64,000 nt of DNA from Tsukamurella sp. TY48 (GTDB lineage: Bacteria > Actinomycetota > Actinomycetes > Mycobacteriales > Mycobacteriaceae): assembly GCF_019656655.1 (NCBI RefSeq), contig NZ_BPMV01000001.1:2542001-2606000 (forward strand), written 5' to 3'. Positions 33,960 to 46,200 of this stretch are shown here, piece after piece (within the stretch, counting starts at the first letter, position 1; each line of letters begins with the position of its first letter). Under the pieces are notes generated by a model. The model made no database searches and had not been told where the DNA came from. It was given only the letters and a program-made list of their open reading frames with translations. A program made the position numbers and the translations under genes.

Positions 33960-35494
33960 ACGGGATCAGCCGCAGGACGGTGCTGCTCGCGGGCCTCGGC
34001 GCGCTCGGGGCCGGCGCCCTGAGCGGCTGCACGTCCGCGGTCGAACAGGCCCGCGCAGCGAACGCCGCGCCCGGCTCGGACGGCGGCACCCTGGTGCTCG
34101 GCTCGCTCGCCGATCTCGACCCCAAATCGATCTACAGCCAGTCGGTCACCACCATGGCCATCGGGCTACTGGTGTGGGACACCCTGATCCGCTACGACCG
34201 CACGACCCGCACCCCACGTCCGGCAGTGGCCCGCGGATGGGAGTTCGGCCCGGACGGCCGCAGCCTCACCCTGCACCTGCGCGACGATGTGCGCTTCCAC
34301 AGCGGGCGGCCGCTCACGGCCAAGGACGTGGCCTACGCGGTCTCGGTGTACGCCTCGGACGCGGCCGGATCGCAGCTGCAGGGCGCCGCGAAGGCGGTGG
34401 CATCGGTGGAGACACCCGATGCGCACACCGCGGTCCTGCGGCTCTCGCGGCCGGTGCCGAACATCGTCGACCTGCTCGAATTCATGCTCCTCGTGGACTC
34501 GGAATCCGCCTCGGAACTGCGCGCGGGCACCGCCTTCGTGGGCACGGGACCGTTCCGCTTCGCCGGCCGCGAGGTGGCGGCGAACGCTCGGTTCGAGCGC
34601 AACGACGAGTACTGGCGCGGTCCCGCCCGGCTCGACGGTGTGACGCTGCGTGTGGTCCGCGACCCCGGCGCGCTGCTCACCTCCATCCGCGCGGGCCAGT
34701 CCGATCTGGTGCTCGACGCCTCACCGCAGGCGCTGCGCCAGTTCCGTGACCAGTCGCTCTACCGGATCACCACGGGCGACGTCTTCGACGCCGCCTACTA
34801 CGTGGGTGCCAACGCCGGCGACCCCGCACTCGCGGACAAGCGGGTGCGGCAGGCGATCTCGTCCGCGGTGAACCGGGAGCGGATCGCCGCGGAGGTGTTC
34901 GCAGGGGTGGCCGAGCCGAGCGCGGCACCGTGGGCACGCAGCTCACCCGCCTACGATCGCGCCGCGGCCAATCACTACCGCCGCGACCTCGACCGTGCCC
35001 GCGCCCTCCTGGCCGAGGCGGACGGCCCCCGTCGCCTCACGCTGAGCTACCCGACGGGGCTGGCGGTGGCACCGTCGATCGCGGCGATCGTCCAGAACGA
35101 TCTCGCGGAAGCCGGGATCACCGTCGAGCTCGATCCGCGCGAGCAGGCCGCGTTCTCACCCTTCCTGCACACCGGGAAGGCCCAACTGTGGCTGGGCCCG
35201 CACGGCTTCGGTCAGTCGGACCCCGCGACGCTCGCGGGCGGCGCGGCGCCGTTCAAGCCCTCCGGCAACCTGTCGAAGTTCTCCACGCCCGAGTACACGG
35301 CCCTCGTCGCGCGGCTGCAGGACGGTACCGGCCGCCCCGAGGTGCTGCGGGAGTACTCCGACTACCTGCTGGACCAGCAGTTCGTGATCGACCTGGCCGT
35401 CTCACCCGCGACCTACGTCTCGCCCGCGCGGGTGAAGGGCCTGGACTGGAACCTCTACAAGTACATCGACCTGCACGGCACCACGATCCGCTAG
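33956..35494 (+). CDS. Peptide/nickel-type substrate-binding lipoprotein
   Basis: The 512-residue protein belongs to the SBP_bac_5 family. Its N terminus SRRTVLLAG is followed by a hydrophobic stretch and the lipobox LSGC with C25 as the lipidated residue; the paired arginines make Tat export possible. Family markers are ARGWEFGPDGRSLTLHLRDDVRFHSGRPLTAKDV (split), GTGPFRF, and VRQAISSAVNRE. It captures the substrate outside the membrane for the permeases above. The ligand (peptide, nickel chelate or other) cannot be decided from sequence. The 3' end overlaps the convergent sulfotransferase gene by 4 bp. Confidence 0.92.
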   Translation: MNGISRRTVLLAGLGALGAGALSGCTSAVEQARAANAAPGSDGGTLVLGSLADLDPKSIYSQSVTTMAIGLLVWDTLIRYDRTTRTPRPAVARGWEFGPDGRSLTLHLRDDVRFHSGRPLTAKDVAYAVSVYASDAAGSQLQGAAKAVASVETPDAHTAVLRLSRPVPNIVDLLEFMLLVDSESASELRAGTAFVGTGPFRFAGREVAANARFERNDEYWRGPARLDGVTLRVVRDPGALLTSIRAGQSDLVLDASPQALRQFRDQSLYRITTGDVFDAAYYVGANAGDPALADKRVRQAISSAVNRERIAAEVFAGVAEPSAAPWARSSPAYDRAAANHYRRDLDRARALLAEADGPRRLTLSYPTGLAVAPSIAAIVQNDLAEAGITVELDPREQAAFSPFLHTGKAQLWLGPHGFGQSDPATLAGGAAPFKPSGNLSKFSTPEYTALVARLQDGTGRPEVLREYSDYLLDQQFVIDLAVSPATYVSPARVKGLDWNLYKYIDLHGTTIR

Positions 35495-36651
35495 AAGCGG
35501 TCCTTCACCTGCTCCTCGGTGAGTCCGTAGTCCGCCAGTGAGTAACTGTGGTTCGGGCGCCGTGCCCCCGTCCGGCTGGCCTCGTGCATCGCCGACATGG
35601 ACTCCCGCGCCGCGTCGGTCAGTTCGAGGCCGAAGGCGTCGTAGATCCCGCCCACGGTGCCGAGCGGATCGCCCACCAGGTCCCGGTAGTCCACATCCAC
35701 GAACTGACCGCCTCGGCCCGCGGCGGTCTGCCGGGCTCGGGACTCGTCGAAGGCGGCCAGGCCACGGGCCCAGGTGTCCAACTGATCGGCGCCGATGGTC
35801 TCGCCGGTGAACGCGGTCGACCACCCCTCGGTGGCGTGCTGCGCCAGCGAGCAGACCGACGCGATGATCGTCTCCGGCGGGCGATGGGTCTGCACCACCA
35901 GCGCGTCCGGGTACACCTCGAACAGCGCGTCCAACGCGAACAGGTGACTCGGATTCTTGAGCACCCACCGCTTGCCGGGATCGTTGCTCCCGATCAGCTG
36001 CAGGTTGCGCTTGTGCCGCCGGTACGCCGGTGCCCAGTCCTGCTCGGCCAACCAGTGCGCGTACGACGGCACGTGCGCCAGGCACTCGTACGAGACCGAG
36101 TGCACGGACTGGCGCAGCAGCTGCCAGCACTCCTCGACCTCCGACGCCGACATGTAGTGCAGGCCCATGAATTCGGGGTGCTCGGTGTGGTGCTGCGCGT
36201 ACTGCTCATCGAGCAGCGTGTAGACGGGGTTCTCGGCCCAGGTCTCGCGCGCGGGGCGCGGCTGCGGTACCTCGGCGAGCCACATCTGCAGGCCCTGGTT
36301 ACCGGGATCGGCGTCCAGGAGGCGGTGCAGCGCGGTGGTCCCGGACCGGGGGAGCCCGGTGACGAAGACGGGCCGGTCGATCGCGACATCGGCGTGCTGC
36401 GGGTTCGCGGCGAAGGCCGCCTCGCTGATCAGCCGCGCCGACAGGGCGCCGCGGAGGAAGACGCGGGAGATCTTGGAGCCGGTCTCGGTGAGCTCCGCCT
36501 CGTCGCGGTAGGCGTCGAGGAGCACCTGCAATGCTTCGCGGTAGCCGTCGGACGGGTCGCCGAAATCACTGAGTCCGGTGCGGCGGACCGCGGATTCGTG
36601 CAGATCGTCGACGGTGCCGACGCCGCTGCCGGCGCGGTGACTGGTGGTCAT
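35491..36651 (-). CDS. PAPS-dependent sulfotransferase (Sulfotransfer_3 type)
   Basis: The 386-residue protein transfers sulfate from PAPS. The 5'-phosphosulfate loop is GLPRSGTT at residues 99-106; the 3'-phosphate region THRPPETIIASVCSL follows, and WVLKNPSHLFALDALFEVYPDALVV is a family block. It is similar in order and length to Rv3529c-type mycobacterial enzymes, whose acceptor is unproven. It is last in a DUF1214-SDR-sulfotransferase operon, 10 bp after the SDR. PAPS would come from cysD-cysNC, 7 kb away and preceded by the same operator as this operon. Confidence 0.88.
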   Translation of the reverse strand: MTTSHRAGSGVGTVDDLHESAVRRTGLSDFGDPSDGYREALQVLLDAYRDEAELTETGSKISRVFLRGALSARLISEAAFAANPQHADVAIDRPVFVTGLPRSGTTALHRLLDADPGNQGLQMWLAEVPQPRPARETWAENPVYTLLDEQYAQHHTEHPEFMGLHYMSASEVEECWQLLRQSVHSVSYECLAHVPSYAHWLAEQDWAPAYRRHKRNLQLIGSNDPGKRWVLKNPSHLFALDALFEVYPDALVVQTHRPPETIIASVCSLAQHATEGWSTAFTGETIGADQLDTWARGLAAFDESRARQTAAGRGGQFVDVDYRDLVGDPLGTVGGIYDAFGLELTDAARESMSAMHEASRTGARRPNHSYSLADYGLTEEQVKDRF

Positions 36652-36661
36652 GGAATCTCCT

Positions 36662-37438
36662 TCAGACGTGGTATTCGCCGCAGTTGACGTCGAGCGTCTG
36701 GCCGGTGATGCCGGAGGCGGCGGGTGAGGCGAGGAAGAGCACGGCCGAGGCCACCTCGTCCTCGGTGGGCAGTCGTTTCAGGTCGGAGCCGGCGGCGGCC
36801 TCGGCGTACTGGTCATCGAGGGTGGGGCCGCCGTCCTGTGCGGCGCGGTAGTCGAAGTAGGCGCGCAGGGTGTCGCCCCAGATCCAGCCGGGCACCACGG
36901 AATTGATCCGGATGCCCTGCGGGCCCAGCTCGGTGGCCAGCGACTGGGCCAGGGCCAGCTGCGCCGTCTTGCCGGCCTTGTAGCCGCCGTAGCGCAGGTC
37001 GGAGTGGCGGATCACCATGGAGTTCACGTTCACCACCGCGCCCTTCGACGCGGCCAGCGCCTCGCGGAAGGCGAGCACGGTGCGCAGGGCGCCCAGCGCC
37101 ATCAGGTTCACGCTCTCCAGGATGTGCGCCGGATCGGTCTTCACCAGGCGCTGCATCGCGGGATAGGTGAAGGCGTTGTTGATCAGGGCGTCGGTGCGTC
37201 CGAACCGCTCCTGCACCTGCGCGGCGAGGGCGGCGAGGGAGGCCTCGTCGGTGATGTCGGCGGTGATCGCGACGGCGCCGTCGATCTGCGCGGCGGTGGC
37301 CTCCAGCCGTTCGGCCGTGCGGGCGGCGAGCACCACGGTGGCGCCCTCGGCGGCGAACCGGCGGCCCAGCGTGGTGCCGAGCGCCGGTCCGGCGCCGGCG
37401 ATCACGACCACGGCGTCCTGTAGTCCCAGCCCGGACAT
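36662..37438 (-). CDS. Short-chain dehydrogenase in the sulfotransferase operon
   Basis: The start at 37438 (MSGLGLQDAVVVIAGAGPALG) overlaps the DUF1214 stop. The 258-residue protein has a variant cofactor loop AGAGPALG, D in ADITDEASL, NNAF instead of NNAG, catalytic Ser in VNVNSMV and Y-x-x-x-K in YKAGK, and ends with the GQTLDVNCGEYHV pattern of FabG-like SDRs. It is the middle gene of an operon whose order matches Rv3531c-Rv3530c-Rv3529c near the cholesterol-degradation region of M. tuberculosis, suggesting a sterol or lipid alcohol substrate (inference). Confidence 0.88.
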   Translation of the reverse strand: MSGLGLQDAVVVIAGAGPALGTTLGRRFAAEGATVVLAARTAERLEATAAQIDGAVAITADITDEASLAALAAQVQERFGRTDALINNAFTYPAMQRLVKTDPAHILESVNLMALGALRTVLAFREALAASKGAVVNVNSMVIRHSDLRYGGYKAGKTAQLALAQSLATELGPQGIRINSVVPGWIWGDTLRAYFDYRAAQDGGPTLDDQYAEAAAGSDLKRLPTEDEVASAVLFLASPAASGITGQTLDVNCGEYHV

Positions 37439-38595
37439 CAGCCCACCATCCGCTCGCCGATGAGCCGCTGCCGCTCCGCGATCCGCGCGCGCCACCCGGC
37501 CCCGTCGATCGCGTTCCGCGCGTGGAAGGGCAGGTGCCCGGCGACCTCGTCCAGCGGAACCACCTGCGCGGTGGGACCGTCTGTGATCGGGGCGCAGGTG
37601 CGCTGCCAACGGAACTGGAGGTAGCCGCGGCGGTGGCCCAGCGTCTCGATCCAGTTGGCGACGCCGGGATCGTTCTCCGAGACCACGATCCGGATGTTTC
37701 CGTCCGGATCCACCTGGGCCTGACTGCCGTTGAGTGAGGTCTGGTGGTTGATGTAGTCGAGCGAGATGTACCACAGGCTGCCCAGCTGGAAGCCGAGATA
37801 CGGTGCGTCGCCGCGCGGCACGGTGATGATCAGGGCCTGATCGTCGGCCAGGTCGTAGTGGCCCACCGAGCTGAACTGGGTGGCCAGGCCGCCGGGCGTG
37901 AGCCGCGGTGCGGTCAGCGTGTTCACCGGCAGCGGATCGTAGAACCACTTGGGGAACTGCAGCCAGGTCTTCACGCGGTTCACCAGCTGCTTGCCGGCCG
38001 CGGCGTACCGCTTGCGGATCAGTTCGTCCGTGAGGGGCGCCGGGGCGGTGCCGGCGGTGTCCACCCGCGCGATGGCGAAGCTGCCGCGCTGCGCCGACCA
38101 GTCGTCGTACACCTCGCGGATCACCAACTGCGCCTTACCCGGTGGTAGCCGGTAGTAGTCCGGGCCGGGCTCGCCCGGACCGAAGCGCACCTCGAACCGG
38201 CCGCCGGCGTCCACGGTGAGCTCGCGGTCGTCGAAGGCCACCGCGCTGGCGGGCACGTTGTCGTCGGTGTACTCGCCCCCGCCGAGCACCTGGAAGCTCA
38301 CATCGCAGGTGCTGCCGCGGCGGCCGGTGACCACGTACTCATGGGCGCCGTCCACCCGGGCGCCGAAGTACAGGGTGTCGGGGTTGTCGAGCCCCATCTT
38401 GGTGAACGGCCCCGTGCCGCTGAGCAGGAACGGATGGTCCTTGTCGAAGTGGAAGGCGCCGTGCACGCAGGCCGCGATGCCCTGGGCGAGGTACTGCATC
38501 CCCTCCAGGAGGTCGGCCTCGGTCTCGATGTGCGGGGCGGCGGCCACGAGGCCCTCGGCCTCGGAGATCGCCTCGGTGAGCGGCTGGGAGTACAT
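37438..38595 (-). CDS. DUF1214/DUF1254-family protein
   Basis: The 385-residue protein matches the Rv3531c type: an N-terminal helical part (MQYLAQGIAACVHGAFHF), a central KMGLDNPDTLYFGARVDG segment, and a C-terminal DUF1214-like region around GFQLGSLWYISLDYINHQTSLN with RIVVSENDPGVANWIE. No catalytic motif is known for this family. It is the first gene of the sulfotransferase operon and lies next to the divergent IclR gene with an 88-bp shared control region. No signal peptide is visible, so it is probably cytoplasmic. Confidence 0.82.
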   Translation of the reverse strand: MYSQPLTEAISEAEGLVAAAPHIETEADLLEGMQYLAQGIAACVHGAFHFDKDHPFLLSGTGPFTKMGLDNPDTLYFGARVDGAHEYVVTGRRGSTCDVSFQVLGGGEYTDDNVPASAVAFDDRELTVDAGGRFEVRFGPGEPGPDYYRLPPGKAQLVIREVYDDWSAQRGSFAIARVDTAGTAPAPLTDELIRKRYAAAGKQLVNRVKTWLQFPKWFYDPLPVNTLTAPRLTPGGLATQFSSVGHYDLADDQALIITVPRGDAPYLGFQLGSLWYISLDYINHQTSLNGSQAQVDPDGNIRIVVSENDPGVANWIETLGHRRGYLQFRWQRTCAPITDGPTAQVVPLDEVAGHLPFHARNAIDGAGWRARIAERQRLIGERMVG

Positions 38596-38611: not shown

Positions 38612-38648
38612 GGTTCAAATATGGACCAATGTGGTAGAACTTGTTCCA
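38612..38648. promoter_or_regulatory. Tandem IclR-type operator between the sulfotransferase operon and iclR
   Basis: Box 1, GGTTCAAATATGGACC (38612-38627), is a near-palindrome of 16 bp. Box 2 starts after 5 bp and is weaker (GGTAGAACTTGTTCCA, 38633-38648). The box-1 sequence reappears, with the two half-sites exchanged, upstream of cysD (43362-43377), and the 21-bp spacing is the same. The pair lies 17-53 bp before the DUF1214 start and 35-71 bp before the iclR ATG. Confidence 0.6.
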
Positions 38649-38683
38649 AAACCGTAGGCCCACGGAGCGAAGGGTGTCAAGCA

Positions 38684-39568
38684 ATGACGGAAACCGGCAG
38701 GACCTCGCCGCCGGCCGAGCGGGTGGTGGCCGTGCTGGAATTCCTGGCACGGCACGAGACCGAGCGGTTCGGCCTGTCCGAACTGTCCCGCCGCGTCGGC
38801 CTCAGCAAGCCCACGTGCCTGGGAATCGTTACCACCCTGGTGGATTCGGGCTACCTGATTCGCGACGAGCGGGACAAGAGCTACCGCCTGGGGCCGGCGC
38901 TGATCCCGCTCGGGAGGGCCGCCCGCAAGTCCCTGCGCGCCGACCCCGCGGGCGGCGACATCCTGGCCGGGCTGTGGTCGCGATTCGGCCATCCGGTCTC
39001 GCTGTCGGGGGTGGTCGGCGACCGGGTCACGGTGCTGGACGTGGCCGTCGACCCCGATCGCCCGGCGATGGTCCGGGTGGGCGACAGCTACCCGTTCACC
39101 CCGCCCATCGGACTGATGTACGTGCTCTGGGACCGCACCGGGCGGCTCGAGGAGTGGCTGTCCCGCGATGTGGCCCGAACCGACGGCGACCGGCTGCCCC
39201 GCGTGATCGAGGCCTGCCGCGCCGACGGCTACCTGGTGGAGCTGCTCACCCCCGCCGGGCAGCAGCTGTACCGGCTGATGGCCGGCGTGCCCGGCGACAT
39301 TCCCGCCGAGTTGCGCGCCGTGCTCGGCGAGGTGGTGGCGGGGATCGGCGACCGGGTGTACCTGCGCGGCGAGAACGAGGCGGGCGCGCACACCGTGAGC
39401 GTGATCTCGGCCCCCGTCTACGACGGCGAGGGTGCGCAGGCGATGGTGGCCAGCCTGTACGTCAGCGCCGATCTCGACGAGGCCGGCATCGCCGAACGGG
39501 CCGCAGCCCTGGTGGCCGCGGCGGACCGGATCTCGGCCCGGATCGGCGGCGATCAGAGCCAGCGGTAG
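38684..39568 (+). CDS. IclR-family transcriptional regulator
   Basis: ATG 38684 opens a 294-residue protein with an N-terminal winged helix (AERVVAVLEFLARHETERFGLSELSRRVGLSKPTCLGIVTTLVDSGYLIRDE) and a C-terminal effector domain (about 95-290) in which the usual ligand-pocket residues cannot be assigned. It diverges from the DUF1214-SDR-sulfotransferase operon and most likely controls it through the tandem boxes at 38612-38648. The copy of the box at cysD suggests a wider sulfation regulon. Its 3' end overlaps the convergent response regulator by 16 bp. Confidence 0.9.
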   Translation: MTETGRTSPPAERVVAVLEFLARHETERFGLSELSRRVGLSKPTCLGIVTTLVDSGYLIRDERDKSYRLGPALIPLGRAARKSLRADPAGGDILAGLWSRFGHPVSLSGVVGDRVTVLDVAVDPDRPAMVRVGDSYPFTPPIGLMYVLWDRTGRLEEWLSRDVARTDGDRLPRVIEACRADGYLVELLTPAGQQLYRLMAGVPGDIPAELRAVLGEVVAGIGDRVYLRGENEAGAHTVSVISAPVYDGEGAQAMVASLYVSADLDEAGIAERAAALVAAADRISARIGGDQSQR

Positions 39569-40239
39569 CGCACCTCGGGCCGCCCGCGTCCGCCGTAATC
39601 GGTGACGCGCTCGACCACCCGGTCGTCGGCGAGCCGCTCCAGGTAGCGCCACGCGGTGACGCGGGAGATGCCGGTCCGGCTCGCCACCTCGCCCGCCCCG
39701 ATCGGCTGACCGGCGTCGCGCACCGCGGCGGTGATCAGGGCCAGGGTGGACGGCGCCATGCCCTTCGGGGTCGACGGTGACGGGGCCGGGTCGCGCAGCG
39801 CGGCCAGTGCTGCATCGACATCGCGCTGGTCCGCATCGCCCGCGCCGAGGGTGCGGCGGAACTCGCGGTAGCGCTCCAGCTTCGCGGCGAAGGCCGCGAA
39901 CGTGAAGGGCTTGATCAGGTACAGCATCGCGCCGCGGGCCACGGCCGCGCGCACCGTCTCGATATCGCGTGCGGAGGTGACCATGATGACGTCCGGGCGC
40001 GGGGACATCGTGGCCAGTTCCCGCGCCATGTCGAGACCGCTCCGGTCGGGCAGCCCGACATCGGCCAAGACCAGGTCGACCGGGTTTCCCGCAGCCGCGG
40101 CGCGAGCGGCGGCACGCAGCCCGTCGGTGGCCGTGGCGGCCGAGCCCACCACCGCGAATCCCTCGATCCGCGAGACGTACTCCGCGTGTGCCTGGGCGAT
40201 CCGCAGCTCGTCCTCGACGATCAGTACCCGTAGTGTCAT
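39553..40239 (-). CDS. Response regulator, CitB/DctR (DcuR) type
   Basis: The 228-residue protein has a receiver domain with E9/D10, phosphoacceptor D60 in VLADVGLPDRSG, T/S in VTSARD and K in LIKPF, then a C-terminal helix-turn-helix (VRDAGQPIGAGEVASRTGISRVTAWRYLERLADD). This layout is that of regulators of C4-dicarboxylate or citrate transport. It overlaps the kinase gene by 4 bp and lies close to dctA, the expected target. Its stop overlaps the end of iclR. Confidence 0.9.
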   Translation of the reverse strand: MTLRVLIVEDELRIAQAHAEYVSRIEGFAVVGSAATATDGLRAAARAAAAGNPVDLVLADVGLPDRSGLDMARELATMSPRPDVIMVTSARDIETVRAAVARGAMLYLIKPFTFAAFAAKLERYREFRRTLGAGDADQRDVDAALAALRDPAPSPSTPKGMAPSTLALITAAVRDAGQPIGAGEVASRTGISRVTAWRYLERLADDRVVERVTDYGGRGRPEVRYRWL

Positions 40240-41807
40240 CGTGCCCCCTCGATCGGCAGTCGTACCTCGATGGTCGCGGGATGCACAGCGGCGGTGATGG
40301 TCCCGCCGTACCTTCCGACCAGGCGGTCGACCAGGGCGAGGCCGAGCCCGCGGCCCTGCACCCGCCCCGTCGCATCCTTGGTGGAGTAGCCCCGTGCCCG
40401 AGCGCGTTCGAACTCGCCCGGATCCATCCCCGGTCCGCTGTCCGCCACCGCCAGCGTCCACTCCGGGCCCGTCGCACCGCTCGATACCTCGACCCAGCCG
40501 TCGGGACCCGCGGCGTCGATCGCGTTGTCGATGAGATTGCCCAGCAGTGTGAGCATCTCGGAGGCGTCCACCGGGCCGCTGTTGAGCTCGGAGCCCTCCG
40601 CCACCGTCAGTTCCACACCCGCTGCCGCCGCCTCGGCGGTCTTGCCCACCAAGAGGGCGGTGACCGCCGGTTCGGCCGCGGTGGCGAGCCGGTCGACCAG
40701 CCCCTGCGAGGCGGCCAGATCGGCCGTGGCCACCTCCACGGCCGCATCGCCGCGGCCCAGTTCGATCATCGTGACCACGGCGTGCAGCCGGTTGGCGTTC
40801 TCGTGCGCCTGCGCACTGAGCGCATCGGCGAAGGACCGCACCGAATCGAGTTCGCCCAGTACGTCCTGCAGCTCGGTGCGGTCGCGCACGGTGGTCACCA
40901 CGCCGACCCGCCCCGTCGGTCCCGAGACCGGCCGACGGTTCACCAGCAGCACCCGGTCGGCGGTCACGTGCAGCTCGTCCGTGAGATCGGTGTCGCCGCG
41001 CAGGGATTCGGGGAGGTCGGTGGTGCGCACGGCCCCGTCGGGCAGGTCCAGCAGGCGGCGGGCCTCGTCGTTGACCACGGCGGCGGGGCCGCCGGGGGCG
41101 GTGTCGTCGAAGACGATCACGCCCTCGGTGAGGGTGTGCAGCACCGCGTCGTGGTGCTCGTACAGCTCCCGCAGATCGGCCGGTGCCAGCCCGAGGGTCT
41201 GCCGCCGCACACGACGCTCGATCAACCAGGAGGCGGCGATCGCGACGGCCAGGGCGAGCGCGGACACCAGCAGTACGCCCGGCAGGGTGGCGGCGAGCTG
41301 ATCGCTGAGCCGGGCCCGCGTGACGCCCGCCGAGACCAGCCCGACGAGCCGTCCGGTCCCGTCGTAGACGGGGGTCACGGCGCGGATCGACGGTCCCAGC
41401 GTGCCGGTGTAGGTCTCGGTGAAGGTCTCCCCGGCGAGCGCCCGGTCGATGTTGCCCGAGAAGGGTTCCCCGATCCGGGACGGATCGGCGTGGGTGTAGC
41501 GGGTGCGATCGGGCGCCATCACCACGATGAAGTCCACGCCCAGCCGGCGGGCCAGCGCCGAGGTGCGGTCCTGCAGCGCGGCCGTCGGGTCGGGGGAGGC
41601 GATCGCGCGGGCCGTATCGGGTGACGTGGCGACCGAGACCGCCACCGCCGTGGTCTGCTGCTCCGCCGCCCGGTCGCGCTCGCCGCGGTCGTCCCACACC
41701 ACCAGCGCCGTCACCAGAACGGCCACCGTGATCAGCAGCGCGACCTGCGCCAGGAACACCTGGGTGGCGAGCGACGGCGACCGTCGTGAGTCCACGCGCG
41801 CCGTCAC
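40236..41807 (-). CDS. Sensor histidine kinase, CitA/DcuS/DctB type
   Basis: With the GTG at 41807 the product is 523 residues (GTG 41810 is equally possible; the ATG at 41882 would place the operator inside the gene). It has a transmembrane helix near 17-37, an extracytoplasmic sensory PAS domain (about 40-170, with IRAVTPVYDGTGRLVGLVSAGVT), a second helix near 175-195, a cytoplasmic PAS domain, phosphoacceptor H335 in the CitA-type context QAHENANRLHAV, and a HATPase with NLIDNAIDAAG and GRGLGLALV. It probably senses dicarboxylates and signals to the overlapping response regulator. Confidence 0.9.
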   Translation of the reverse strand: MTARVDSRRSPSLATQVFLAQVALLITVAVLVTALVVWDDRGERDRAAEQQTTAVAVSVATSPDTARAIASPDPTAALQDRTSALARRLGVDFIVVMAPDRTRYTHADPSRIGEPFSGNIDRALAGETFTETYTGTLGPSIRAVTPVYDGTGRLVGLVSAGVTRARLSDQLAATLPGVLLVSALALAVAIAASWLIERRVRRQTLGLAPADLRELYEHHDAVLHTLTEGVIVFDDTAPGGPAAVVNDEARRLLDLPDGAVRTTDLPESLRGDTDLTDELHVTADRVLLVNRRPVSGPTGRVGVVTTVRDRTELQDVLGELDSVRSFADALSAQAHENANRLHAVVTMIELGRGDAAVEVATADLAASQGLVDRLATAAEPAVTALLVGKTAEAAAAGVELTVAEGSELNSGPVDASEMLTLLGNLIDNAIDAAGPDGWVEVSSGATGPEWTLAVADSGPGMDPGEFERARARGYSTKDATGRVQGRGLGLALVDRLVGRYGGTITAAVHPATIEVRLPIEGAR

Positions 41808-41846
41808 CACCCGTCCCGATCGATGCACCGGTTTCGTGCACACAAT

Positions 41847-41862
41847 GAACACAAGAGTGTTC
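41847..41862. promoter_or_regulatory. Inverted repeat between the two-component system and dctA
   Basis: GAACAC-AAGA-GTGTTC is a perfect inverted repeat with a 4-bp spacer, 56 bp before the dctA ATG and 39 bp before the divergent kinase start. It is a good candidate binding site for the response regulator next door. Confidence 0.45.
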
Positions 41863-41918
41863 CAAGTCACAGTGTGCCGCACGATCAGAACTCGTCAAGC
41901 ACGACGAAGGAGATCGCC

Positions 41919-43310
41919 ATGACGGCAGCAACGGACAACGATACTTCCGGCGGGCCGGTGCGCCGCAAGAAGGACAAGACGCACTACCTGTACCTGGCCG
42001 TGATCGTCGCGGTGATCGCCGGTGTGGCGGTCGGCATGCTGTTCCCCGAATTCGGCAAGGGGCTCAAGCCGCTCGGCGACATCTTCGTCGACCTGATCAA
42101 GATGATGATCGCGCCGGTGATCTTCTGCACCATCGTGCTGGGCATCGGCTCGGTGCGCGCGGCGGCATCGGTCGGCAAGATCGGCGGGCTGGCGATGGCC
42201 TACTTCGTGGTGATGTCGACCTTCGCGCTCGGCATCGGCCTCGTCGTCGGCAACCTGCTCAAGCCCGGCACCGGTCTGAACCTGCCCGCCGAGGCGGGCG
42301 GCGGCGCCAAGTACGCCGATCAGGCGCACGAGGCGGGCGGCACCTGGGACTTCATCCGCGGCATCGTCCCGGACACCCTGTTCTCCTCGCTGACCTCGGG
42401 CAGCGTGCTGCAGGCCCTGCTGGTCGCCTTGCTCGTGGGCTTCGCCCTGCAGGCCATGGGTGGCGCCGGTGAGCCGATCCTGCGCGGCGTCGCGATGGTG
42501 CAGAAGCTGGTCTTCCGGGTGCTGGTGATGATCCTGTGGCTGGCGCCGGTCGGCGCCTTCGGGGCCATCGCGGCGGTGGTGGGTGCCACCGGATTCGAGG
42601 CGGTCAAGCAGCTCGCCTGGCTGATGGTGGCCTTCTACGCCACCTGCCTGGTGTTCGTCTTCGTGATCCTGGGCCTGCTGCTGCGCTTCGTGGCGAACCT
42701 GTCCGTGTTCAAGCTCGCCCGCTACCTGGCACGGGAGTACCTGCTGATCGTGGCCACTAGCTCCAGCGAGTCCGCGCTGCCGCGCCTGATCGCCAAGATG
42801 GAGCACGCCGGCGTCGAGAAGTCGACGGTGGGGATCGTGGTGCCCACCGGCTACTCCTTCAACCTCGACGGCACCGCGATCTACCTGACCATGGCCTCGC
42901 TGTTCATCGCCGACGCCATGGGCGCCCCGTTCTCGATCGGGCAGCAGTTCTCGCTGCTGCTGTTCATGATGATCGCTTCGAAGGGCGCCGCGGGCGTCAC
43001 CGGCGCCGGGCTGGCCACGCTGGCCGGTGGCCTGCAGACCCACCGCCCCGACCTGCTCGACGGTGTGCCGGTGATCGTGGGCATCGACCGGTTCATGTCC
43101 GAGGCCCGCGCGCTCACCAACTTCTCCGGCAACGCCATCGCGACGCTGCTGATCGGCACCTGGACCAAGACCATCGACCGTGATCGCACGGTGGAGGTGC
43201 TGGACGGCCGCGCGCCCTTCGACGAGGAGACCATGGTCGACGACCACGATCTGCCCGCGGCCGAGGGCGCACCGTCGGGCGGCGGCGCGGAGGTGGCGCA
43301 GGCCCGTTGA
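41919..43310 (+). CDS. dctA: C4-dicarboxylate:cation symporter DctA
   Basis: ATG 41919 follows a GAAGGAGA ribosome site. The 463-residue protein has about 8 membrane segments plus re-entrant loops and the DAACS signatures: KMMIAPVIFCTIVLG early, the serine-rich ATSSSESALPRLIAKME loop, PTGYSFNLDGTAIYLT, and the C-terminal FSGNAIATLLIGTW. It takes up succinate, fumarate, malate and similar acids. It diverges from the two-component system that probably controls it. Confidence 0.93.
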   Translation: MTAATDNDTSGGPVRRKKDKTHYLYLAVIVAVIAGVAVGMLFPEFGKGLKPLGDIFVDLIKMMIAPVIFCTIVLGIGSVRAAASVGKIGGLAMAYFVVMSTFALGIGLVVGNLLKPGTGLNLPAEAGGGAKYADQAHEAGGTWDFIRGIVPDTLFSSLTSGSVLQALLVALLVGFALQAMGGAGEPILRGVAMVQKLVFRVLVMILWLAPVGAFGAIAAVVGATGFEAVKQLAWLMVAFYATCLVFVFVILGLLLRFVANLSVFKLARYLAREYLLIVATSSSESALPRLIAKMEHAGVEKSTVGIVVPTGYSFNLDGTAIYLTMASLFIADAMGAPFSIGQQFSLLLFMMIASKGAAGVTGAGLATLAGGLQTHRPDLLDGVPVIVGIDRFMSEARALTNFSGNAIATLLIGTWTKTIDRDRTVEVLDGRAPFDEETMVDDHDLPAAEGAPSGGGAEVAQAR

Positions 43311-43340
43311 CAGGCGACGAGAACGCGTTCTAATCTCCAG

Positions 43341-43377
43341 GTATCAGAAATGGACCGATGCGGTCCAAATATGAACC
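43341..43377. promoter_or_regulatory. Tandem IclR-type operator upstream of cysD
   Basis: The strong box GGTCCAAATATGAACC (43362-43377) matches the box upstream of the sulfotransferase operon at 14 of 16 positions, the two differences being an exchange between the symmetrical half-sites. A weaker box (GTATCAGAAATGGACC, 43341-43356) lies 5 bp upstream, giving the same 21-bp spacing. TGGACC-GATGC-GGTCCA (43351-43367) also forms a perfect inverted repeat across the two boxes. The strong box ends 13 bp before the cysD ATG. Confidence 0.6.
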
Positions 43378-43390
43378 ATTGGAGAGAGTG

Positions 43391-44320
43391 ATGAGCGCTC
43401 CCGTCGCCCCGGCCCCCACGACGGTGCCGGCCCATCTGGCCGAGCTCGAAGCGGAGGCGGTGTACATCTTCCGAGAGGTCGCCGCCTCCTTCGAGCGTCC
43501 CGTGCTGCTGTTCTCGGGCGGTAAGGATTCGGTGGTCATGCTGCACCTCGCGGCCAAGGCCTTCTGGCCCGCCGCGATCCCGTTCCCGGTGCTGCACATC
43601 GACACCGGCCACAACTTCGACGAGGTGCTGGCCTTCCGCGACGATCTCGCCGCCCGGATGGGCGTGCGCCTCGAGATCGGCAGCGTGCAGGACGACATCG
43701 ACTCCGGCGCCGTGGTCGAGCAGACCGGACCGGGCGCCACCCGCAACCGGCTGCAGACCGCCACGCTGCTGCGCAGCATCGCCGAGCACCGCTTCGACGC
43801 GGCCTTCGGCGGCGCCCGCCGGGACGAGGACAAGGCCCGCGCCAAGGAGCGCATCTTCAGCTTCCGGGATCGGTTCGGGCAGTGGGACCCCCGCGCGCAG
43901 CGCCCCGAACTGTGGAACATCTTCAACGGCCTGCACGCACGCGGCGAGCACATCCGCGTCTTCCCCCTGTCCAACTGGACCGAGCTCGACATCTGGCAGT
44001 ACATCGCCGCTGAGCGGGTGGACCTGCCGGCGCTGTACTACGCGCACGAGCGCGAAGTGATCGAACGCGACGGCATGCTGCTGTCGGTGGGCCCGCTGGT
44101 GCAGCCCGAGCCGGGCGAGACGCCCGCGGTCCGGACGGTGCGCTTCCGCACCGTCGGCGATGCGACCTGCACGGGCGCAGTCGAATCCGACGCCACCGAC
44201 GCCGAGGCCGTGGTCGCCGAGGTGGCCGCGACCCGGATCACCGAGCGCGGCGCCACCCGCGCCGACGACCGGATCTCCGAGGCCGGGATGGAAGACCGCA
44301 AGAAGGAGGGCTACTTCTGA
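43391..44320 (+). CDS. cysD: Sulfate adenylyltransferase subunit 2
   Basis: CysD makes APS from sulfate and ATP with the GTPase CysN. The 309-residue protein has the PP-loop FSGGKDS (42-47), the [16 protein letters not shown] block, the [14 protein letters not shown] segment and the C-terminal [11 protein letters not shown] and [12 protein letters not shown] motifs. ATG 43391 follows GGAGAGAG. It overlaps cysNC at 44320 (TGATG). The operator box immediately upstream suggests IclR control shared with the sulfotransferase operon. Reduction to sulfide would need cysH, which is not in the window. Confidence 0.95.
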
Positions 44321-46200
44321 TGGAGATGGTGCGGATCGCGACCGCCGGCAGCGTGGACGACGGCAAGTCGACCCTGATCGGACGGCTGCTCTACGAATCG
44401 AAGGCGGTCTTCGAGGACCAGCTCGCGGCGGTCGCCGCGACCACCCGGGCGCGCGGCGAGGCGGGCGTCGACCTCGCGCTGCTCACCGACGGGCTGCGGG
44501 CCGAGCGGGAGCAGGGCATCACCATCGACGTGGCGCACCGATACTTCGCCACGCCCGCACGGAAGTTCATCGTCGCCGATACCCCGGGGCACGAGCAGTA
44601 CACCCGGAACATGGTGACCGGGGCATCGACCGCCGATGTGGCGCTGATCCTCGTGGACGCGCGGCACGGGCTCACCGCGCAGTCGCGCCGGCACACCTTC
44701 CTCACCTCGCTGCTCGGTGTGCAGCACGTGGTGCTGTGCATCAACAAGATGGACCTGGTCGGCTTCGCGCAGGAGCGGTTCGATCAGATCCGCACCGAGT
44801 TCACCGAATTCGCCGCCAAGCTCGAGGTGCACGATGTGGAGTCGATCCCCGTTTCCGCGCTGCTCGGCGACAACATCACCGAACGCTCGCCGAACATGCC
44901 CTGGTACGACGGTCCCTCGCTGCTCTACCACCTGGAGAACGTGCACGTGGTGAGCGACCGGAACCTCATCGACGCCCGGCTGCCGATCCAGTACGTGATC
45001 CGGCCGCAGGGCGCCGCCGCTCCCGGGACCGATCCGCGGGCGCTGCACGACTTCCGCGGCGTGGCCGGCACCGTCGCCTCCGGATCGTTCGCCGTGGGCG
45101 ACGAGGTGGTGGCCCTACCGTCCGGCTTCTCGACGACCGTGACCGAGCTGTACCGGCCCGGCGGCACTCCGGCGACGGAGCTCACGGCCGGGGAGGCGGT
45201 GTGTGTGCGCCTGGCGGACCAGCTCGACATCGGCCGCGGCGACATGCTCTGCCGCCCGGTGAACCGGCCGCAGTCCGCCGCCGACCTCGACACCATGGTG
45301 TGCTGGTTCTCGGACACCGCCGAGCTGGCGCAGGGCGCCGAATACCGGATGCTGCACGCCAACTCGTCGGAACTGGTACGCGTCGAGGAGGTGGACTACC
45401 GGCTGGACACCACCACGCTCCATCGCGACAGATCTGCGACGAATCTGCAGCTCAATGACATCGGACGGGTGCAATTGGCCGCACGGCGTCCCATCCTGTT
45501 CGATCCGTACCGGCGCAACCGCACGACCGGTAGCTTCGTGCTCGTGCACCCGCAGACCAACGAGACGGTCGCGGCGGGCATGATCTCGGGGCCCACCCTG
45601 AAGAACTCCGCCGTGGTGTGGCACGGCGCCGCCCTCGACCGCTCCGAGCGTGCCACCCGCGGCGGCACGCTGTGGCTCACCGGGCTCTCGGCGTCGGGCA
45701 AGTCCACGGTCGCGGCGGAGGTCGAACGCCTCCTGGTGGCCCGCGGCATCCCGGCCTACCGGTTGGACGGCGACAACCTGCGCCACGGCCTCAACTCGGA
45801 TCTCGGCTTCAGCGCCGCGGACCGGGCGGAGAACGTGCGCCGGGTGGGCGCCGTGGCGCAGCTCCTCGCCGATGCCGGGACGGTGGCGGTCGCGGCCCTG
45901 ATCAGCCCCTACCGCGCCGACCGCGAGCGGATCCGGCGCGAGCACGAGGCCGCGGGACTGCCCTTCTGCGAGGTGTACGTGGACACCCCCATCGAGCAGT
46001 GCGAACGGCGCGACCCCAAGGGCATGTACGCCCGGGCGCGGGCGGGTGAGGTGCCCGATTTCACCGGCGTCAGCGCACCCTACGAGGCGCCGGTGGAGCC
46101 CGAACTGGTGCTCCGTCCCTCGGACGGCGAACCCGCCGCGCAGGCACGGCTCGTGGTGGCGCGGTGGCTCGCGGTCAACGCCGCCGCGGGCGGCCTCTAA
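44320..46200 (+). CDS. cysNC: Bifunctional sulfate adenylyltransferase GTPase subunit and APS kinase
   Basis: The 626-residue protein is a CysN-CysC fusion. Residues 1 to about 435 are the elongation-factor-like GTPase: P-loop GSVDDGKS (10-17), switch/G3 DTPGHEQY (87-94) and NKMD (142-145). Residues from about 447 hold APS kinase with a second P-loop GLSASGKS (455-462), [15 protein letters not shown] and the lid region [19 protein letters not shown]. It therefore converts APS directly to PAPS, the sulfotransferase donor. The stop is 9 bp upstream of the purL start, an unusual neighbour. Confidence 0.95.

Follow-up and report, generated by a model that had tools for sequence, protein, structure and literature searches.

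The KstR regulon of mycobacteria, the mycobacterial sulfotransferase Stf1, the CysD-CysNC complex and the IclR family of regulators are the closest described systems to the locus considered here, in which a sulfotransferase operon, a divergent iclR gene and a cysD-cysNC pair lie within 64,000 nucleotides of Tsukamurella sp. TY48 (RefSeq assembly GCF_019656655.1, contig NZ_BPMV01000001.1, positions 2,542,001 to 2,606,000 of the forward strand; this whole stretch is hereafter the window). The available part of Kendall 2007 (PMC1995591) gives the KstR motif as TnnAACnnGTTnnA and places KstR binding between Rv3531c and Rv3532, before Rv3531c, and the accessible part of PMC8882603 equates Rv3529c with Stf1. 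From the annotation order in the accessible part of PMC6429209, together with the similarity of the window's sulfotransferase to PDB entry 2zq5, Rv3531c-Rv3530c-Rv3529c is taken as the operon orthologous to ours.

Compared with these systems, the window presents both likenesses and additions. The motif that stands before Rv3531c (PMC1995591, in the part available) also stands here before the operon for a DUF1214-like protein, a short-chain dehydrogenase/reductase (SDR) and the sulfotransferase, but a second operator type and an operon making 3'-phosphoadenosine 5'-phosphosulfate (PAPS) are added. CysD and CysNC are the same enzymes, with the same domain fusion, as in the complex of PMC3141025 (as far as that source was available), but here they are an extra copy, linked to a sulfotransferase and to IclR-type and KstR-like sites. 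The regulator shares with the IclR family (KdgR, PcaR/PobR) the family-type helix-turn-helix and an autoregulatory position, but it falls far under the cut-offs of the six NCBIfam models that it matched and has no Pfam effector domain. The sulfotransferase is similar over nearly its full length to 2zq5, which we take to be the mycobacterial Stf1 (its database label is 'Putative uncharacterized protein'). We know of no described acceptor of Stf1 and, in the tuberculosis bacterium, of no iclR or cysD adjacent to it. IclR, cysD, sulphate and sulphotransferase/sulfotransferase are not mentioned in the available text of Kendall 2007 (PMC1995591); no paper in the open-access literature was found to join IclR, sulfotransferase and PAPS, or IclR, cysD and sulfotransferase; and open-access papers on KstR and sulfotransferases, as far as their titles and the starts of their abstracts go, held nothing on such a module.

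As a comparison of sequences across many genomes indicates, the locus is probably a conserved sulfation module with its own PAPS supply, gated by the IclR protein and KstR during steroid use.

A palindrome shared by the two operons

The palindrome GGTnCAnnnnTGnACC occurs as GGTTCAAATATGGACC at 38612..38627, in the divergent DUF1214/iclR control region, and as GGTCCAAATATGAACC at 43362..43377, before cysD, as seen in the window sequence and in the genome scan (sites are given without a strand throughout). The original prediction had boxes at exactly these coordinates and counted agreement at 14 of 16 positions; both statements are correct, and the two differing positions are each an exchange between half-sites. 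When up to three mismatches were allowed, only these two places were found in the window, each on both strands, while 100 shuffles of the window gave a mean of 0.27 matches and a maximum of 2. In the genome (4,366,002 bases, 2 contigs), the exact matches to GGTYCAAATATGRACC were the two boxes only, where about 0.001 matches would be expected assuming a G+C content of 0.70. One further place appeared at two mismatches to the palindrome pattern, and at three mismatches there were 13 strand-wise matches versus 8 for a reversed-pattern control at the same limit. The box is thus not widespread, its exact copies being the two sites at the two operons. Across 49 genomes (~273 Mb), the pattern GGTnCAwwwwTGnACC has 42 sites, 32 of the 49 genomes carrying one, and 41 of these sites are at the module, beside iclR or the linked cysD.

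A weaker second box at 21-bp spacing had been described for both operons, and this stands for cysD only. There, a tandem half-site, GTATCAGAAATGGACC (43341..43356), lies 21 bp before the palindrome with one good half-site, the ACC half of which is shared by 66 of 67 other-genus loci. The corresponding element at 38633 is no copy of the IclR box, from which it departs at 5 of the 10 fixed positions (a count made by hand), and it contains a KstR-like palindrome instead.

KstR-like boxes and the proposed steroid link

This second palindrome, TAGAACTTGTTCCA at 38635..38648, matches the KstR motif TnnAACnnGTTnnA in full and is the sole exact copy in the window. Its counterpart before cysD, GAGAACGCGTTCTA at 43319..43332, is one end base off and sits between the -35 and -10 elements of a promoter-like TTGACA-18-TAATCT (43307..43336, plus strand), which was recognized from the sequence and is also present in five Mycobacteroides-type loci. 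In 14 aligned Tsukamurella sequences, the TTGACA is invariant and the -10 variable. The presence of a KstR-like element in both control regions is a new point, missed in the original prediction, and suggests how an acceptor that was 'perhaps steroid' can become a specific hypothesis.

The genome contains a single TetR_C_20 match (E 3.9e-37), whose best PDB matches are KstR chains (E ~1e-65). The gene of this KstR orthologue, at 2364.5-2365.1 kb (L398), lies at one end of a ~80-kb stretch with KstD, HsaC and HsaD, a steroid cluster with many KstR-like boxes, one of them 40 bp before the KstD frame. Other TetR-type candidates for KstR were rejected: the frames L238:3615-4340 and L238:16684-17289 had no PDB match, the frame L239:11367 was put aside as presumably resembling KstR2, and L244:5137 was likewise put aside on our own assumption.

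Conservation within Tsukamurella

In 14 of 16 Tsukamurella genomes, iclR, the sulfotransferase and the boxed CysD lineage occur together, and all three are absent from the same two genomes (G011 and G012), in which the exact palindrome was also not found. All 14 iclR-bearing genomes have the box at both operons, as the original prediction would have it; before cysD it is exact in 13 and within one mismatch in the remaining one. The sequence TAGAACyTGTTyCA precedes DUF1214/iclR in all 14 aligned control regions, and AGAACnnGTTCTA lies between the cysD -35 and -10 in 13 of 14, G003 being different. Twelve of the 14 genomes have iclR directly between the two boxes and cysD after it. In the window's genome and in G004, iclR and cysD are set apart by a Dcu/DctA block, and both sites are still present in the cysD promoter. 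It should be noted that alignments A1 and A2 omit G007, G009, G010 and G013 of the 14 module-bearing genomes, and that A3 omits those as well as G004, whose iclR has a stop at codon 291.

The window's genome has three CysD matches, of which the boxed one is the third copy. The second gene lies beside sulfite reductase, a CysH-type PAPS/APS reductase (APS, adenosine 5'-phosphosulfate) and CysN, and the remaining one beside a second CysN-APS-kinase fusion; the boxed cysD-cysNC is therefore an extra copy. None of 16 other-lineage cysD copies examined in Tsukamurella had the box within one mismatch.

In G010, an 83%-complete genome (L049), the iclR and cysNC matches are each in three pieces, probably because of assembly errors. 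In Tsukamurella tyrosinosolvens NCTC13231, the whole module is found, together with purL, on a sequence annotated as 'plasmid 22' (NZ_LR134464.1, L399), a label that is doubtful because purL is present there.

Other genera, family and order

A family-wide search of 401 genomes found iclR at E<=1e-50 in 165, across 15 of 31 genera, and from the matches listed, 100 loci were taken from 12 of the 14 non-Tsukamurella genera (g9 and g13 are not included). In these loci, DUF1214 adjoins iclR in 100 of 100, the sulfotransferase is present in 99, and cysD follows iclR within 1.5 kb in 91, a figure that is not representative of genus g30, as one locus was taken from it although it has many. With one mismatch allowed, 96 of 100 loci have GGTnCAnnnnTGnACC ahead of DUF1214/iclR and 67 of the 91 have it ahead of cysD (80 and 61, respectively, when exact), and the KstR-like box (up to one mismatch to TnGAACnnGTTCnA) lies in the DUF1214/iclR gap in 93 of 100 and in the cysD gap in 66 of 91. 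Shuffles that preserved base composition alone gave means of about 0.6 and 0.2 for these counts. The two gaps of the 100 loci hold 141 exact copies of GGTnCAnnnnTGnACC, while their 1,175,164 other bases hold none. The sharing of the palindrome by both operons thus extends beyond Tsukamurella, to 67 of the 91 loci with an adjacent cysD.

The spacing of the two kinds of site is narrow. From start to start, the KstR-like box and the palindrome before iclR are 39-48 bp apart in 87 of the 91 loci that carry both and 23 bp apart, the Tsukamurella spacing, in four, and the KstR-like box lies 42-49 bp upstream of the cysD palindrome in 65 of 65 loci. At the level of the order, 42 of 298 genomes searched had iclR, and eight loci from two other families were compared. 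In all eight, the sulfotransferase and DUF1214 genes neighbour iclR, and the gap contains both the palindrome (within one mismatch) and a KstR-like box.

A separate scan of named genomes with DUF1214 considered the best 80 of 297 relatives. In this set, a divergent iclR adjoins DUF1214 in 76 loci, 75 of which have the palindrome within one mismatch, and three of the four loci with no adjacent divergent iclR are also without the palindrome. The exact KstR motif was found in 69 of the 80 DUF1214 gaps. Twelve loci have cysD in the stretch, namely seven of Tsukamurella and five of Mycobacteroides type, and the latter five all have GAGAACnnGTTCTA in the promoter of cysD as well as the palindrome at this gene (four exact, one with one mismatch). 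In a CysD tree, the boxed cysD of Tsukamurella and Mycobacteroides group together with 98/94 support, and the Mycolicibacterium-type cysD form a separate clade; this tree and the upstream test draw on loci of 30 of the 33 genomes searched, with lower-scoring second mycobacterial CysD copies left out. In one mycobacterial locus (L132), iclR is flanked on both sides by a DUF1214 gene.

Proposed regulation

An Stf1-type PAPS-dependent sulfotransferase, an SDR and a DUF1214-like protein would, in our proposal, be coupled to their own PAPS-making CysD and CysNC. The palindrome GGTnCAnnnnTGnACC in both control regions would be read by the adjacent IclR protein, because its gene is that of the regulator which accompanies the palindrome, and the TAGAACnnGTTCTA-type site in both regions would be read by the steroid repressor KstR, because of its motif. 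Of the two sites at cysD, the KstR-like one falls within the core promoter and the IclR palindrome ~25-40 bp beyond the -10 box, on its downstream side; given these positions, repression is the most likely action of both proteins. Expression of the module would then be on when a steroid-derived ligand of KstR and a second ligand, that of the IclR protein, are both present, and such two-ligand switching would match the making of PAPS to the demand of the sulfotransferase. The weakest step of the proposal is the acceptor, which would probably be a steroid-derived or steroid-induced hydroxylated metabolite. The shared operator of the original prediction, conserved together with iclR and tied to both operons, thus gains computational support, and the regulation itself stands as a prediction.

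Several observations weigh against this proposal and should be considered when referring to it. The palindrome is absent before cysD in 24 of the 91 other-genus loci where cysD follows iclR. Twenty-one of these loci, from three genera, have a gap of -4 to 128 bp between iclR and the CysD homology, and three more boxless loci belong to other genera. Over all loci, the median iclR-cysD gap is 54 bp where the palindrome is missing versus 119 bp where it is present, as would be expected if cysD were read through from the iclR promoter; short gaps, however, account for the boxless loci only in part. In the two other families of the order, none of the seven loci showing cysD (the contig of the eighth ends) has the palindrome before it, and in five of these seven cysD is 0.6-1.0 kb from iclR; five loci there have the KstR-like box (within one mismatch) before cysD. 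All 26 Mycolicibacterium-type genomes that keep iclR have their best cysD elsewhere, with no box within one mismatch, and the donor link is hence not universal; among the mycobacteria examined, it was seen in Mycobacteroides-type genomes only. The expectation that the box is kept at cysD wherever iclR is kept therefore stands for Tsukamurella and for the 67 of 91 other-genus loci, and fails for these 26 best Mycolicibacterium-type copies.

The KstR-like site presents similar exceptions. It was not found in the DUF1214 gap in any of the four loci of genus g14, and the exact motif is missing from this gap in 11 of the best 80 named relatives. The five Mycobacteroides-type loci, all of which have no KstR-like site at DUF1214, are among these 11. 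The pattern is also common in the window's genome, with 139 matches at up to one mismatch versus 104 for its reverse. As for the IclR protein, no Pfam effector domain was matched at E<=1, so that its ligand cannot be guessed.

Alternative explanations

The alternative that survives best accepts the palindrome as an IclR operator and the regulon as real, but assigns AGAACnnGTTC to the promoter itself or to a different TetR protein, with no tie to steroids. AGAACnnGTTC does overlap the cysD -10 box, its Tsukamurella iclR copy shares bases with a conserved GGTAGAA, possibly the iclR -10, and the absence of the motif at DUF1214 in the five Mycobacteroides-type loci fits as well. We nonetheless consider this explanation unlikely. 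AGAACnnGTTC agrees with the KstR motif as published, and KstR binds upstream of the mycobacterial operon that is taken as orthologous (both from the available part of PMC1995591). Furthermore, at both operons and in many genera, the spacing between the motif and the palindrome varies little, the start offset that prevails in other genera places it apart from GGTAGAA in most of their loci, and it recurs at KstD and at other steroid-cluster genes of the window's genome.

Much less probable is that the cysD box serves general sulfur assimilation, with the IclR protein as a sulfur-status regulator and the sulfotransferase operon as a side target. cysD-cysNC is indeed within the target set, and the cysDNC of M. 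tuberculosis responds to sulfur limitation (PMC3141025, in the part available). However, the genome has two further CysD copies, one of them in the company of sulfite reductase, PAPS/APS reductase and CysN, and the 16 other-lineage Tsukamurella copies examined have no box within one mismatch. The genomes without the boxed cysD, moreover, are the very ones without the sulfotransferase, and in the Mycolicibacterium-type genomes tested the regulator accompanies the sulfotransferase rather than cysD. That the boxes owe their conservation to something other than protein binding, such as a role as a terminator or RNA element, is hardly credible, for although palindromes can form hairpins, the boxes are AT-cored, lie in control regions with a narrow geometry, and accompany iclR or the linked cysD at all but one of the exact sites in the 49 genomes, the palindrome being missing from three of the four named loci that have no adjacent divergent iclR.

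Genes of the module and related boxes

The minus-strand operon runs in the order DUF1214-like protein, SDR and Stf1-type sulfotransferase, with iclR divergent from it. The DUF1214-like protein (37438..38595, minus strand) scores 20 bits with PF06742, under the cut-off of 25, while its profile matches PDB chain 6ans at E 6.5e-38. The SDR oxidoreductase (36662..37438, minus strand), the start of whose reading frame was picked by hand, reaches 345.6 bits with NF005909 of NCBIfam (cut-off 258). The sulfotransferase (35491..36651, minus strand) belongs to PF13469 (Pfam E 1.8e-58; phmmer E 6.7e-171 to 2zq5), and its P101-T106, a PRSGTT-type loop, is invariant in 10 Tsukamurella sulfotransferase sequences. 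Such a loop in sulfotransferases is the PAPS loop. The IclR-type regulator (38684..39568, plus strand) matches HTH_IclR (PF09339) at E 2e-9 and 37.5 bits (cut-off 22), and its profile aligns over its positions 6-181 to the PDB IclR protein 5tjj. CysD, the small subunit of sulfate adenylyltransferase (43391..44320, plus strand; TIGR02039, 447.3 bits, cut-off 396.6), and CysNC, the large subunit fused to APS kinase (44320..46200, plus strand; NF004035, 900.8 bits, cut-off 715), form a complete sulfate-activating pair, as CysD, CysN and the fused APS kinase all lie above curated cut-offs. Between iclR and cysD, at 39553..43310, the block of DcuR-DcuS (minus strand) and DctA (plus strand) is outside the module; in the 11 other iclR-bearing Tsukamurella species whose stretch reaches it, DcuS-DcuR-DctA is found beyond the sulfotransferase.

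Related boxes were also seen elsewhere. A near-match, GGTCTAAATATAGACC, lies on the second contig of the window's genome (G000:C2:103546-103561, L247) beside a TetR gene, and occurs also in G001, G004, G009 and G014. It was rejected as a further site of the module, as it looks like the own site of the gene beside it, and is probably the operator of the adjacent TetR protein. In G014 (C255:13875-13915, L246), two related boxes 25 bp apart stand upstream of a MarR-like frame, judged by eye, and an MspA-type porin gene; a box pair of this type was found in that one genome only, out of the 49.

Implications

To our knowledge, the role of the mycobacterial KstR-controlled sulfotransferase operon has not been explained. 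That the operon is linked, in many related genera, with a second regulator and with PAPS-making genes of its own suggests that sulfate transfer itself would be the operon's job. With our confidence evenly divided, we propose that steroid catabolism may, in much of the Mycobacteriales, include PAPS-dependent sulfation as a dedicated and integral step that has its own sulfate-activating enzymes, and that donor supply and transfer may both be under a two-key switch formed by KstR and a so far undescribed IclR regulator. The likely pathway would thus have a name, steroid use, and the module has tractable, non-tuberculous hosts, in which the deletion of one gene should remove one sulfated compound.

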